NCBI GenBank assembly: GCA_016782835.1
Contig: JADHXS010000009.1
Coordinates: 1 to 34,187, forward strand
DNA: 34,187 nt
Reading direction: 5' to 3'
DNA from: Phycisphaerae bacterium
GTDB lineage: Bacteria > Planctomycetota > Phycisphaerae > Sedimentisphaerales > Anaerohalosphaeraceae
Of this stretch, positions 14,338-20,357 are shown piece after piece; positions within the stretch are counted from its first letter, which is position 1; each line of letters opens with the position of its first letter. Under the pieces are notes generated by a model. It ran no database searches and was not told the DNA's origin. It saw only the letters and a program-made list of their open reading frames with translations. The position numbers and the translations under genes were made by a program.

Positions 14338-14402
14338 CTCGCCAAGGAGGGAGGGTTTTAACGAACATTCGGAATTTTCCATTTATGATTAGTGAGGCAG
14401 CC

Positions 14403-15671
14403 ATGAAATGGGTATTGTGTATATTTATTTGTCTGTTATCGGTTCCGCTGTTTGCTTCCGTACAGGTACGCATCTGTGATCCTAACACATTTGAAGCCAT
14501 CAATTTGACGGAAGTCATGGTCGGCAGCCGTATATCGCTCGTTGTAAATTCTGATGCAAACGATTTCTGGAGCGGAGGACTCTTTATTGAAGGACAGGAC
14601 CGTGCCATTGGGCGATTACAAGCCAAAGACAAGGATCCTAACTCACGCGACTGGTCCGGAAGCCATTTTGGGTCTTCGGGTGAAGGAGCTTATGTGATCG
14701 GATGGAAAGACTCCATGATGTGGGGATTTGACCTGTATCCTGACAACTTCGAGAGAGAAAGCGGCAACTGGTTTGTCATTGATTATTACGCACAGGATGA
14801 AGGGTCATGCAATGTCGGCTTTTATGACCACAGCTATTCCTGGACGATTCCGGATCCGAATGTATCGCTCACTTTTCTAAACACACCCACTCGTGATTTG
14901 CATTCCGACGGTTTTGTCAATTATGCTGATTTTGTGGTTTTTTCCTCTTATTGGCAGGCTGAAAACTGTGCCGATCCCAACAACAGTTGTTATCAGGCGG
15001 ATTTTAGTCGAAACGGCTCGGTTGGCCTGGAAGATGTTGTGATGTTCGCCGATTTCTGGCTGTATGGGAATCCCGGCTGGAAGCCGGCTGAAACATCCAC
15101 CACCACCACAACAACAGCATACGTGGCAGAACCCAATATCGTATATGACGTGACTTACGCAATTGTCGATGTGAATTCACTGTCTGAAATCACGCTGGAA
15201 GTGGGCCAGAGCGTTGTGCTTTATATCGTGAAATCCAGTACCTACGAAGATACTTATGTCTTTAATACCGAAGTTAATATCTCAGATCCAAATTTAGGCT
15301 CAATCGACAATTCCTTCTTCGGTACCGCTGAAATTCTGGCAACGCCGCGAAGTGACATGTTTGACTATATTGGCCCCGGCTCTAATCAAAGCGACGGCAT
15401 TGAGTTCTTTGCTGCCAGTCTCGGCGCAATTATGCTGGACGGTGACATGGCGAGCTTTGTCTACACGGCAACAGAACCGGGGGATGTGACGCTGAATTTG
15501 ATGAACTATTCCTCAGGAGCCAAATTGGAGCCGATTATAATCCACCAGTTTGAGTCTGTCGTGGAAAAGCTCCAGCAAATCTATGAGGAAAGTCCGACAC
15601 TTCAGGAAAAAATTCCGGAGCCTGAGTGGAATGAATTTATCGAGAGCGTAGAACAATCCGAATCAAATTAA
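14403..15671 (+). CDS. Secreted protein with an internal dockerin-like region flanked by two cohesin-like beta domains
   Basis: Signal peptide MKWVLCIFICLLSVPLFAS. Dockerin-like repeats DLHSDGFVNYADFVVFSSYW and ADFSRNGSVGLEDVVMFADFWLYG. T-rich linker STTTTTT. ASFVYTATEPGDVTLNLM resembles a cohesin-type C-terminus. Confidence 0.65.
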   Translation: MKWVLCIFICLLSVPLFASVQVRICDPNTFEAINLTEVMVGSRISLVVNSDANDFWSGGLFIEGQDRAIGRLQAKDKDPNSRDWSGSHFGSSGEGAYVIGWKDSMMWGFDLYPDNFERESGNWFVIDYYAQDEGSCNVGFYDHSYSWTIPDPNVSLTFLNTPTRDLHSDGFVNYADFVVFSSYWQAENCADPNNSCYQADFSRNGSVGLEDVVMFADFWLYGNPGWKPAETSTTTTTTAYVAEPNIVYDVTYAIVDVNSLSEITLEVGQSVVLYIVKSSTYEDTYVFNTEVNISDPNLGSIDNSFFGTAEILATPRSDMFDYIGPGSNQSDGIEFFAASLGAIMLDGDMASFVYTATEPGDVTLNLMNYSSGAKLEPIIIHQFESVVEKLQQIYEESPTLQEKIPEPEWNEFIESVEQSESN

Positions 15672-15723: not shown

Positions 15724-17409
15724 ATGAAACGCATAATCATGTATTCATTACTTGTCCTGTCGCTGATCAGCAGTTTACGGGCTGACCGATTGATGGACCC
15801 GAATGAAACAGAAACATTGGTTAGGCATCTGACCAATAACCCCCGGATGGGCTGGATCCCCCAAGGCATGATTCAGGCTCGGCACATGGAGTACTACGGA
15901 TACGACAATTCCCTGAAAGAAGCAACCGAAACGATTTATCGCGACAATTCCCGGTTCCGTCTGGAAATGCACCTGGAAGACGGATTATCCATCGACAGTC
16001 CATCGAATCAAAACATAGCACGGCAATTTCAGCAGGATTTTAAATTAAACCGCAATCGCATCTTTGTCTGGGATGGTCAAAAATATGTGCAGTACTATCA
16101 ATCTGCCGATTATGCCGTGGTGGTCACCGATTCTCAAAATGTGCCAACAGATACCTGCGGGCCCATAAGCGCAGGAATCATTCCCTGGGGACACGGAGAC
16201 TTTACGTTTTGGGTCATTATGTCTCAAGATCCGACGGCTTCCGTAATAAGCCAGAGCAATCACGACACAATCCTGTTCGAATATATCAGTGATACAATTT
16301 CGCCTGAGGCTCACATTTCTTTTGTGCTGGACCCCTCAAAAGACTATGCTGTTTTGTCTTACAGTATCGAAAATGACCAGGCATTGCTGCAGCAAACATA
16401 CGAGGAGTATATTCAGGCCGGTAACCAATGGGTCCCTTCAAAAGTCCTGATTGAACGATTCGATAAACGTTCCGGAACGCCGCAGTTATTGTCTTATGAA
16501 GACTGGCAATTTGAAACCATTGATTCGGCAATGCCTTCAGATGATGTATTCTCCGTCAACTTCAAAGACGGAACGATGGTTGAGCTAAAACCTGGAGGCA
16601 ATCTCAAGACTTTTTTGTATAATGCCTCGGATAGTGTTGATATTTCGGAAATTCTTGAGGATAAAATTTCGATGCTGCAAACACAGGACCCGGATTCTGT
16701 AAATTGTGCCACTGCGGCTATTCAACATATTATGAAACGATTTTCAAAAACCATTTCACCGTCCGAATTGGCAAGTCTTGTCTCCGGAGAGACTAAAACA
16801 ACCGCCCTGTCGGACATAAAAGAAACCTTCGAAGACGCAGGTCTGACCTGTATGGCCATTGAGACCGATCTTCAAACGCTGGAAAAAATACCGGACTGTA
16901 CAAAAATTCTGCATCTGGCATTAAGCAATCACTATGTGATTCTCGATCACATCGATCAGGATTCAATATGGGTGATTGACTTGACGAACCGAAAATTTTA
17001 TGCCAAAAGAAAGATTGACGAATTTCTGCAGGAATGGAACAACGGTGCCGCATTGCTTATCTCCAACGAACCGATCACTCCCCCTCTGGACGCCAGTTTC
17101 CGCTACCTTCAGGCGGAGGAGATCTCACAGATTCATGGAGGGGACTTCGGAACATACTCATGCACAGACATGATACAGGGCAATTACCATATTCTTTGTC
17201 CTCAGCCAACCGGAGGCTTCCTTTGTTATGGAGCTTATTATATTTTCTACGAACGATATGGTTGCATCGAAGATGAAAACGGCGGTACCTGTACGGGCCA
17301 AAAAATGCCCTGCTACGATTATTATCATTGCCTAAATGACCCTTTTAGGCCAGGAAACTGCATTCTCCCAAACCCACCGATTACCCGGTATATCAGGGCC
17401 TGTCAGTAG
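15724..17409 (+). CDS. Secreted protein: N-terminal beta-rich domain, C39-like peptidase domain, double-glycine-like site, Cys-rich C-terminal tail
   Basis: Signal peptide MKRIIMYSLLVLSLISSLRA. NCATAAIQHIMKRF (Cys328), NHYVILDHID (His403) and WVIDLTN (Asp419) in C39 order. LQAEEISQIHGG ends at residue 473, then an 88-aa tail with 9 Cys. Confidence 0.7.
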   Translation: MKRIIMYSLLVLSLISSLRADRLMDPNETETLVRHLTNNPRMGWIPQGMIQARHMEYYGYDNSLKEATETIYRDNSRFRLEMHLEDGLSIDSPSNQNIARQFQQDFKLNRNRIFVWDGQKYVQYYQSADYAVVVTDSQNVPTDTCGPISAGIIPWGHGDFTFWVIMSQDPTASVISQSNHDTILFEYISDTISPEAHISFVLDPSKDYAVLSYSIENDQALLQQTYEEYIQAGNQWVPSKVLIERFDKRSGTPQLLSYEDWQFETIDSAMPSDDVFSVNFKDGTMVELKPGGNLKTFLYNASDSVDISEILEDKISMLQTQDPDSVNCATAAIQHIMKRFSKTISPSELASLVSGETKTTALSDIKETFEDAGLTCMAIETDLQTLEKIPDCTKILHLALSNHYVILDHIDQDSIWVIDLTNRKFYAKRKIDEFLQEWNNGAALLISNEPITPPLDASFRYLQAEEISQIHGGDFGTYSCTDMIQGNYHILCPQPTGGFLCYGAYYIFYERYGCIEDENGGTCTGQKMPCYDYYHCLNDPFRPGNCILPNPPITRYIRACQ

Positions 17410-17472: not shown

Positions 17473-18294
17473 ATGAGAGATAAGGGACTAACCTTAATAG
17501 AAATGCTGATTGTCGTCGCAATCATCGCGGTTTTGTCAACGATGGCAATCCCTGTTCTAAAAAAGAGTAAAGAACAGGGCAAAGATGTATTTTGCACCAA
17601 TAATCTACGACAGTTGGCTTTTGCCGTCTCAATTTACTCCCATGAAAATCCGGATTATCCGCAAGGGTTTTGTGGTGACCCGGACTGCCATCCCAGTATT
17701 CCTTACGACAAATATATAAAATTGGGCACAGATACGAATGACTGGCAAAACAGTTGGTGGTGGTTCCATTTTCTAAAAGACGTTATTGAAGATAATTTCT
17801 CGAAAGAAGGACCGCTTTGGTGTCCGTCAAGACATTTTTCTGACGCTGAACTCTCAAGAAATATCTTATGCGGGAACTATGGCATCAATTACTCTATCTG
17901 CAAAATATCAACCACTTCCCCTGTCGATCAATTTTCCGGAAAGCCGCTTCGGTCAGAACAGGTTTGTTCTCCTGCCTCCAAGCTGCTTTTGATGGATTCA
18001 GGTTATGCGCTAATCAGTTGGAAAGCGTTTGCTTTGGACAGTACTATTTATGCCTTTGAAAACCCCAGCCGACAGGATTCCTACTACTTACCGGGGGCAA
18101 CCGTAAATAAGCAACGCTTTGAGAACGGTTCGATCAATAAATTCCAGCAAGAGGATGCCATCAGCGGGCGTCACTCCGGGAAATTTAACGCGGCCTTTGC
18201 AGACGGCCATGTGGACAAAAAAAGCCCTTCTTCGGTGGAACCTGATTGGGATACTGATAGAAATATATCGGGAAGTTCATTCTGGTCCCCATAA
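17473..18294 (+). CDS. Type II secretion pseudopilin-like protein with H-X9-DG motif
   Basis: N-terminal prepilin-like GLTLIEMLIVVAIIAVLSTMAIPVLKKSKEQGK; C-terminal GRHSGKFNAAFADGHV (H-X9-DG). Confidence 0.85.
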   Translation: MRDKGLTLIEMLIVVAIIAVLSTMAIPVLKKSKEQGKDVFCTNNLRQLAFAVSIYSHENPDYPQGFCGDPDCHPSIPYDKYIKLGTDTNDWQNSWWWFHFLKDVIEDNFSKEGPLWCPSRHFSDAELSRNILCGNYGINYSICKISTTSPVDQFSGKPLRSEQVCSPASKLLLMDSGYALISWKAFALDSTIYAFENPSRQDSYYLPGATVNKQRFENGSINKFQQEDAISGRHSGKFNAAFADGHVDKKSPSSVEPDWDTDRNISGSSFWSP

Positions 18295-18318: not shown

Positions 18319-19335
18319 TCAGGTGACTTCGCCTTTTCGTTTGAGGGTCTGGCGGATGATGAAGTCGATGAGAGTATTGTAATCGATGCCGGCGCGCTGG
18401 GCGGCTTCGGCGACTTCCTCGCCCCAGGCCAGATCCGGATTCGGGTTGGCTTCGAGTATTACAATTCTGCCGTCAGGTTTTAGCCGCAGGTCGATGCGTG
18501 CGTAATCCCGCAAATGCAGGACGCGAAAGGCCCGCTTGCAAATTTGGCCGGTGCGTTTGATTGTCTCCGCTTCAAGGTCGGCAAACCCGAAGTTGATACC
18601 CCATTTTTCGCGGTAGTCATCATTCCACTTGACGCGATAGGTTGCCAAATTAGGGCCTTCGTCCTTGTCGAAGTCAAAAACGCATTCACGCGCCGGACAC
18701 ACGTTGAGCCGTTTGTTGCCCAGCACGGTCACATAAAGCTCCCGGCCTTCAATATATTCTTCGGCGATGGCATCCTGATGCCAGCGGTCGTGGATAAATT
18801 CGGCTCGTTCGCGAAGGGCCTCAACATGATTGACCAGTGAGGCGTTGGAAATTCCTTCGGAACCATCGCCGAGAGCCGGTTTAACGACCAGCGGGAATTG
18901 GATGGATTTATTCACATGAATGGTTTTGCCCCACGGCAGCGACAAAAAGTTCGGAACGCGGATTTTGTGAAGTCCCAGCAGTTCTTTACACAGCCGCTTG
19001 TCTCGACAGAGCATCATCCCCATCGGCCCGGAGCCGGTGTAGGGAATTTGAAGCATATCCAGAACGCCCGCAATGTTTTTGTCCCACAACCGTTCGCCGC
19101 AGTACTGCTCGGTCAGGTTGAACACAAGGTCACGCTTGTGTTCTTTGAGTTCGGCAATCATCTCTTCGAGGTTATCAAAGATTCCAATCACTGAAACGTC
19201 ATGATGCAGATGCCGCAGGGCTTCGATGACGTGATATTCGGTGATGGCTTTTTCGGTCGGGTCATGAAATTGCGGATCGTCAGCCGGAATGGTGGAAGCA
19301 TCAACGAGAACCGTGATGTTCAGGCTTTGAGTCAT
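18319..19335 (-). CDS. ATP-grasp ligase, D-alanine--D-alanine ligase-like
   Basis: YTGSGPMGMMLCRDKRLCKELLGLHKIRVPNFL, PLVVKPALGDGSEGIS, AEEYIEGRELYVTVLGN, RIDLRLKPDGRIVILEANPNPDL. Confidence 0.85.
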   Translation of the reverse strand: MTQSLNITVLVDASTIPADDPQFHDPTEKAITEYHVIEALRHLHHDVSVIGIFDNLEEMIAELKEHKRDLVFNLTEQYCGERLWDKNIAGVLDMLQIPYTGSGPMGMMLCRDKRLCKELLGLHKIRVPNFLSLPWGKTIHVNKSIQFPLVVKPALGDGSEGISNASLVNHVEALRERAEFIHDRWHQDAIAEEYIEGRELYVTVLGNKRLNVCPARECVFDFDKDEGPNLATYRVKWNDDYREKWGINFGFADLEAETIKRTGQICKRAFRVLHLRDYARIDLRLKPDGRIVILEANPNPDLAWGEEVAEAAQRAGIDYNTLIDFIIRQTLKRKGEVT

Positions 19336-20357
19336 ATTTTCCCTCGTGTATCAATGCGATGGGTTCCGCTGGCGATGGCGGTTAAAAGCGTGGTAATGCC
19401 GATCAGTCCGTCCAGATTGTCTTTGGTATACAAATCCAGCGCGTCACATCGCTGAATCATCCGATGGATGAGTTGATGGATGTCAAATTTTCGGTGGCCG
19501 GTCCATCGGGCCGCGTGAGTAGTCAACAGTCGGCGGTGCTGGCGCAGCATTTTAGACGCCCTGATAGACGATTCACTGGTTGAACTTGCCGAGAAAACGA
19601 CCTTCAGGCTGTCGTCGTAATACCCCTTGAATTCGGTGCCGAGTTGATTGCGTTTTCGATTGTAGTAGGCCAGCAGGGTAGAGGTCATGCGGGCGGCCGA
19701 CCACGGCGGATTCGGCGAAGCGGTCACAACCGGCACCTGTTGGGCAATGCGGTTCATCAGATGGTTGATGTATTCCAGCTTTTGCAGGGCGGGCCATTTT
19801 TGGTATTTTTCACGCCAGTTGCTGTCAGGGTTCAGCCAAACGGCAAATGTTTCAGCAAAGTCTTCATCCGGGTGGCATTGAGCGTAATAATCGTCCAGAT
19901 GGACGACGAACCGCCGGGAATAGGGGCGGTACTGATAGATGTCCGAATAGTGTAAGGAAAAGCGGCCGAACAATTCACGCCAGCGGGTGCGGGCATAAAG
20001 CCTGTAGGCGTAGTTAATGGCATGGCCGCATTCGTGGCGCAGCAGTTTGATGCAGTCCTTTTCATGGGCGCCTTCGGCCTCGTACATCATCTTAACTTCC
20101 AGTGCCTTCAGCCGCGGATGCGCCAGGCAGAAGGGAATGCCGATGATCGGCTCCTTATCCGGACACAGCCATTCATCCGCCAAATAGCAGGGCGGCCGAA
20201 ACCCGATGCCTTTATCGGCTAATTCCTCATACAGCCGCTGGACCATCGGCTCCAGCGGCGAATCGGTGATATGCAGGTTGAGGTCTTTAACCCGAATCTC
20301 GAGCAGTTCATCATCGCTGAGGTCTTCCCAGTCCAGGATGTATTTTTTTCCGGCCAC
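19332..20357 (-). CDS. Putative zinc-binding metallopeptidase (Peptidase_Mx-like)
   Basis: KLLRHECGHAINYAYRLY (HExxH) and downstream DEDFAETFAVWLNP; overlaps the ATP-grasp gene by 4 nt. Confidence 0.8.
   Translation of the reverse strand: MAGKKYILDWEDLSDDELLEIRVKDLNLHITDSPLEPMVQRLYEELADKGIGFRPPCYLADEWLCPDKEPIIGIPFCLAHPRLKALEVKMMYEAEGAHEKDCIKLLRHECGHAINYAYRLYARTRWRELFGRFSLHYSDIYQYRPYSRRFVVHLDDYYAQCHPDEDFAETFAVWLNPDSNWREKYQKWPALQKLEYINHLMNRIAQQVPVVTASPNPPWSAARMTSTLLAYYNRKRNQLGTEFKGYYDDSLKVVFSASSTSESSIRASKMLRQHRRLLTTHAARWTGHRKFDIHQLIHRMIQRCDALDLYTKDNLDGLIGITTLLTAIASGTHRIDTRGKI

Follow-up and report, generated by a model that had tools for sequence, protein, structure and literature searches.

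The locus and the 561-residue protein

The window, meaning the whole stretch of 34,187 nucleotides that was analysed, carries a gene for a 561-aa protein, found once in a 2.25 Mb MAG. From its N-terminus, this protein consists of a Sec signal peptide, a LolA-fold domain, a C39 peptidase domain, a double-glycine leader-like segment and a Cys-rich tail. The features of the locus are as follows.

14385 to 15671, + strand: upstream partner, a secreted protein of 428 aa whose dockerin-type repeats are weak (NF041540 match under the cut-off, E=1.5e-4)
15724 to 17409, + strand: open reading frame of 561 aa, its start preceded by an AGGAG ribosome-binding site
15724 to 15783, + strand: Sec signal peptide, residues 1-20, from the sequence and the AlphaFold2 model
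15784 to 16623, + strand: LolA-fold N-terminal domain, about residues 21-300, from the AlphaFold2 model and Foldseek
16636 to 17064, + strand: C39 peptidase domain, residues 305-447, from Pfam PF03412, Foldseek and profile matches
16705 to 16707, + strand: codon of catalytic Cys328, invariant in 23/23 homologs
16930 to 16932, + strand: codon of catalytic His403, invariant in 23/23 homologs
16978 to 16980, + strand: codon of catalytic Asp419, invariant in 23/23 homologs
17107 to 17142, + strand: double-glycine leader-like segment LQAEEISQIHGG, residues 462-473, from conservation, pLDDT and LahT contacts
After 17142, + strand: predicted cut, after residue 473
17143 to 17406, + strand: Cys-rich tail, residues 474-561, with eight family-conserved cysteines, from the homolog alignment and Cys counts
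17473 to 18294, + strand: downstream partner, a DUF1559 (SBP_bac_10) type-IV-pilin-like pseudopilin (PF07963, PF07596)

The signal peptide is expected to be cleaved after ...SSLRA, ahead of a conserved DR, and the A-D-R junction is kept in homologs. Together with a hydrophobic helix at residues 2-18 of the model, this junction supports the signal peptide proposed in an earlier note on this DNA, and the Sec-type start argues for the secreted location proposed there. When the sequence was read again, the motif, residue numbers and spacings given in that note were all as written.

A full-length AlphaFold2 model, built from 8 sequences, has a mean pLDDT of 72.9 and contains an N-terminal helix, the LolA-fold domain and the C39 domain. 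The N-terminal domain has no Pfam match by sequence; against the PDB, Foldseek matches it to several LolA structures, 4ki3 and 1iwl among them, at E about 1e-5. It had previously been described as a beta-rich N-terminal region, which does exist, although its LolA fold went unnamed. The domain thus has the fold of LolA/RseB-fold periplasmic proteins, but differs from them in having no detectable sequence-family match and in being joined to a peptidase. The likeness is one of fold only and does not imply lipoprotein transport.

C39 peptidases are classically cytoplasmic domains of peptide exporters and act on separate precursors. In the protein studied here, Peptidase_C39 (PF03412) matches residues 323-448 with E=1.1e-16 and 61.3 bits, against a curated cut-off of 22. 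The closest solved structure is LahT150 with bound leader, 6mpz (Foldseek against the PDB, TM 0.74, E=4.8e-6), and further matches include PCAT1 and ComA by Foldseek and ComA, PCAT1 and LahT by profile comparison. Pfam and Foldseek thus confirm a papain-like C39 fold. The triad of Cys328, His403 and Asp419, with a His-Asp spacing of 16, is as had been claimed; it is found in 23/23 aligned homologs and is unchanged down to about 30% identity. In LahT, His101 and Asp117 are likewise 16 apart (PMC6363468).

The Gln at Cys-6, the proposed oxyanion residue, lies in a variable column and is present in only 1/23 aligned homologs. In the LahT co-crystal this Gln is 4.3 A from the oxygen; the catalytic His was suggested to be able to serve, and the need for the Gln was doubted (PMC6363468). 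Since the catalytic His of LahT may serve, the missing Gln makes peptidase activity less likely without excluding it. Secreted planctomycetal C39 domains that keep the Cys and lack Gln at Cys-6 were also seen elsewhere (L047, L099, L100, L103, L105, L112), some of them carrying rhodanese or DUF1573-like parts.

The leader-like segment and the Cys-rich tail

Leader columns were compared in 23 homologs aligned gap-free on Gly472 (position -2). Position -12 is [LIV] and position -4 is I or L in 23/23, while position -7 is hydrophobic in 15/23 and Gln, Ala or Thr in 8/23. Gly occupies -2 in 23/23, and -1 is G, A or S in 11, 7 and 5 of 23, respectively. The positions between these are variable. When residues are grouped in a reduced alphabet, variability among the twenty columns -20 to -1 is lowest at exactly -12, -7, -4, -2 and -1, which is one of 15,504 possible sets of five, the homologs not being independent. 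In 79,138 aa of neighbouring proteins, a looser form of the leader pattern occurs 0.5 times and a stricter form 0.13 times per 1000 aa.

These positions are the ones known from LahT150. There, leader residues -4, -7 and -12 occupy a hydrophobic groove, the bound leader forms a two-turn helix from -11 to -4 and is linear from -3 to -1, and the small residues at -2 and -1 serve to fit a narrow active-site cleft; the last two residues of natural leaders are Gly-Gly, Gly-Ala or Gly-Ser (PMC6363468). The earlier suggestion of a C39-substrate leader in cis is thus borne out by the recognition positions kept in the 23 homologs (-7 in 15/23).

AlphaFold2 was run on the full length and on residues 300-561, the leader being modelled from just 8 sequences. 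In both runs residues 461-470 have a pLDDT of 91-94, residues 464-469 form a helix, residues 471-472 form a bridge, and confidence drops to about 30 directly after residue 473. As modelled, the shape of the leader is the bound-substrate shape known from the LahT complex. Judged from model confidence and secondary structure, the leader may therefore dock in the C39 active site. Burial of the GG pair in a folded domain was checked in part: because confidence falls right after it, the site is predicted to lie outside any confidently folded domain.

The tail had been described as having 9 cysteines. It does contain 9 in 88 residues here; the family framework, however, is one of 8, the ninth being private to the window sequence. 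Across the family the tail has 81-97 residues, with an even number of cysteines in 17/23 homologs and an odd number in 6/23. The eight cysteines kept across the family argue for a conserved tail of putative disulfide type. Mean pairwise identity among the 23 homologs is 39% in the tail, 37% in the C39 domain and 18% in the linker between them, and by this sequence measure the tail is conserved at least as well as the peptidase. Cys328, His403, Asp419, Gly472 and most tail cysteines are among the invariant residues; in the homolog comparison that the earlier note had called for, the triad, Gly at -2 and tail cysteines were kept.

The tail has no Pfam match and no PDB-sequence match at E up to 10, and its AlphaFold2 confidence is low (pLDDT about 25-49). 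With a tail profile, no stand-alone tail was found in 60 genomes, all strong matches lying within a C39 reading frame. Three weak matches in the same genomes, at E 0.001-0.08, are not credible relatives.

In the tail of L023, the equivalents of Cys514 and Cys523 are lost together, and two new cysteines occur just after its GS site. The joint loss suggests that Cys514 and Cys523 are disulfide partners.

Distribution and gene neighbourhood

Among 60 genomes, made up of the window's own and those of 59 relatives, 25 carry the fusion protein, and 23 of these family members were used for the alignment and column counts. All 25 carriers belong to one order of Planctomycetota (Sedimentisphaerales-type MAGs); named close relatives of the protein come from MAGs of Sedimentisphaerales and other Phycisphaerae-type Planctomycetota. 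At the scale of the phylum, full-length matches are confined to the same order, and a few others cover the C39 part only. The GG-Cys tail is absent from all 20 planctomycetal C39 proteins surveyed in other genomes of the phylum. In the open-access literature, no relevant report of a secreted or self-processing C39 fusion was found.

The C39 matches of the 60 related genomes reach E 1e-20 at best, and their odd-sized frames were read; none is a C39-ABC exporter, an absence that is not absolute because the genomes are drafts. In other parts of the phylum, C39 frames of exporter size that match at E below 1e-28 are common. Besides the fusion, the window's genome encodes a single other C39 protein, which has 276 aa and crosses the membrane several times.

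The neighbourhood of the gene is conserved, often with spacings of <100 bases. A relative of the 428-aa dockerin-like protein is the same-strand upstream neighbour in 20 homologous loci, and the DUF1559 pseudopilin lies downstream in 19, one of them with an intervening gene. Following these, in 20 loci (L118-L139), is a convergent pair of genes, one for an anti-sigma-like membrane protein of the zf-HC2 kind and one for a sigma factor of the ECF type. Matches to zf-HC2 and to sigma region 4 are weak; that of L119 to sigma region 2 exceeds the cut-off. The pair of the window's genome is intact but lies on another contig (G000:C84; L147:5739-7552). No exporter or immunity gene was recognised next to the fusion gene.

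The presence of the C39 protein agrees with that of the anti-sigma protein in 56/60 genomes: 23 have both, 33 have neither, and 2+2 have only one (Fisher p 3e-12, relatedness ignored and two weak C-terminal-only anti-sigma matches left out). The complete relative G016 lacks the C39 protein but keeps pseudopilin, anti-sigma and sigma; the C39 protein is thus a partner of this core and not essential to it. At the G016 locus (L148:7072-9410), pseudopilin and anti-sigma genes are found, with a sigma-sized gene before the latter.

The leader motif occurs in neither operon partner; among 40 proteins there is one unconserved match, within a pilin N-terminal helix. The periplasmic region of the anti-sigma protein was considered as a LolA relative of the N-terminal domain and gave no profile match.

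In another planctomycete (L111), a C39 domain and a DUF1559 pilin-like protein occur in a single reading frame, echoing the C39-pseudopilin neighbourhood of the window family. Within the window, 19332-20357 (- strand) has a weak, below cut-off match to Peptidase_Mx (zincin-type), and a D-Ala-D-Ala ligase-like ATP-grasp gene (18319-19335) adjoins it.

A second, distant family with a similar plan can be found in four related genomes (L048, L050, L051, L067; loci with context L142-L145). Its proteins consist of TPR, C39, GG and Cys-rich tail, two of the four running off contig ends. Their leaders are ...LSRQQMQAIRGG, IADQKLANLKGG, LDERLWLLKGG and LSRQQREAIRGG, each with the presumed cut site at its end, with another Cys-rich tail behind. 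In three loci with context, the gene next to that for the TPR-C39 protein encodes a LolA-like protein. A profile comparison based on these finds it homologous to the N-terminal domain that is fused in the window family (hhalign probability 93.7, E 1.9e-7). The window C39 family and the TPR-C39 family each form one clade. An independent origin of the two is unsupported: the AU test does not reject a single clade (p 0.70), and independent recurrence of the C39-GG-Cys plan is therefore not claimed. A very Cys-rich fragment, phospholipase-A2-like by eye, lies near one second-family locus (L142:8577-9257, - strand).

Possible mechanism and related systems

Because a peptidase, a matching cut signal and a Cys-rich end share one chain, autoproteolysis outside the cytoplasm is likely. 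The best reading, and a fairly probable one, is a secreted self-processing C39 peptidase-precursor fusion that releases a four-disulfide peptide. A fusion of enzyme and substrate had been proposed before; its C39 domain, cis leader, conserved tail and secreted location are now supported, whereas cleavage is still deduced from them.

HlyB is a known example of a C39-like domain that only binds, and it occurs with 3zua among the fold matches of this C39 domain. By analogy, the domain may be inactive and hold its own leader as a latch, so that the tail stays on and the whole protein has a structural or binding role at the surface. Only one aligned homolog has the Gln at Cys-6, and many further secreted C39 domains of planctomycetes lack it as well. 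Such a latch is nonetheless unlikely: the triad does not vary even among homologs of about 30% identity, the small residues retained at -2 and -1 are fit for a narrow cleft (PMC6363468), and the catalytic Cys that degenerate exporter C39 domains lose (PMC10986499) is kept here. It is quite improbable that the main targets of the peptidase are other secreted proteins, cut in trans, with leader and tail as a C-terminal pro-piece blocking the active site until it is taken off. Genes for other secreted proteins nearly always accompany the C39 gene, and a cis leader would fill the active site by mass action; yet the two operon partners lack the leader motif, no other leader-bearing substrate was found among operon partners, and it would be unusual for a mere pro-piece to be conserved no less than the enzyme, as the tail is. 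Single-sequence matches to the loose motif are common enough (0.5 per 1000 aa) for the GG motif to be thought incidental, in an ordinary secreted enzyme whose Cys-rich C-terminal domain serves for anchoring or sorting. This is hardly credible, given that, of twenty columns in an otherwise loose linker, those five of the leader vary least, and that only G, A or S occurs at -1.

The fusion protein shares the C39 fold, triad and 16-residue His-Asp spacing with LahT150 and PCAT/AMS exporters such as ComA and PCAT1, and the -12/-7/-4 leader contacts and GG/GA/GS site with their substrates. Unlike those exporters, it has no transmembrane and ATPase domains, and has a signal peptide and LolA-fold domain instead. 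Its putative substrate is C-terminal in the same chain, the oxyanion Gln is missing, and the site of action would be outside the cytoplasm. Double-glycine precursors (class II bacteriocins, competence pheromones) likewise have a leader pattern followed by a small product, Cys-rich in this case. Their leader, however, is N-terminal on a separate precursor, whereas here it is internal, behind the peptidase, in every homolog, and the predicted product of about 88 aa would be Sec-exported together with its protease.

LapG is a Cys protease outside the cytoplasm that cuts the LapA adhesin at a small-residue pair, freeing a surface protein. The likeness would lie in that location and that type of site; LapG belongs to another peptidase family, and its target is a separate protein.

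Polymorphic toxins with papain-like, HINT or caspase-like releasing peptidases also place the peptidase directly ahead of a C-terminal domain that it would set free, and the available part of the account lists C39-like domains as toxin domains, not as the releasing peptidase (PMC3482391). In comparison with the toxins described there, the fusion has a tail of one conserved family without swapped toxin domains, and its conserved neighbours are pilin-like, dockerin-like and sigma/anti-sigma proteins, with no immunity gene seen. A polymorphic-toxin reading was dropped on the grounds that the tails form one conserved family (mean identity 39%).

In the self-processing reading, Sec export would come first, after which the tail would form up to four disulfides. 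The leader helix, with its hydrophobic residues at -12, -7 and -4, would sit in the C39 groove of its own chain or of a neighbouring copy, putting Gly-Gly, Gly-Ala or Gly-Ser into the active site. Cys328 would then cut after residue 473 and so set free, in the periplasm or outside, a disulfide-rich peptide of 81-97 residues (88 in the window protein). The role of the LolA-fold part may be to keep the enzyme in place or to carry a greasy ligand. Expression is probably linked to the ECF sigma/anti-sigma pair that most loci have close by; at the cell surface, the product probably works together with the pseudopilin and the dockerin-like protein of the same gene cluster. As a long shot, the peptide could be an autocrine envelope signal: an ECF sigma factor would switch on the self-cutting protease, and the co-encoded transmembrane anti-sigma factor would sense whether the peptide is there or not, and thereby govern a surface structure built on a pseudopilus.

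If confirmed, the family would represent a double-glycine system moved outside the cytoplasm and self-contained in one Sec-exported chain. It would define a family of Cys-rich peptides without a relative found in Pfam or PDB, and would tie this peptide to a sigma/anti-sigma and pseudopilin module in Planctomycetota.
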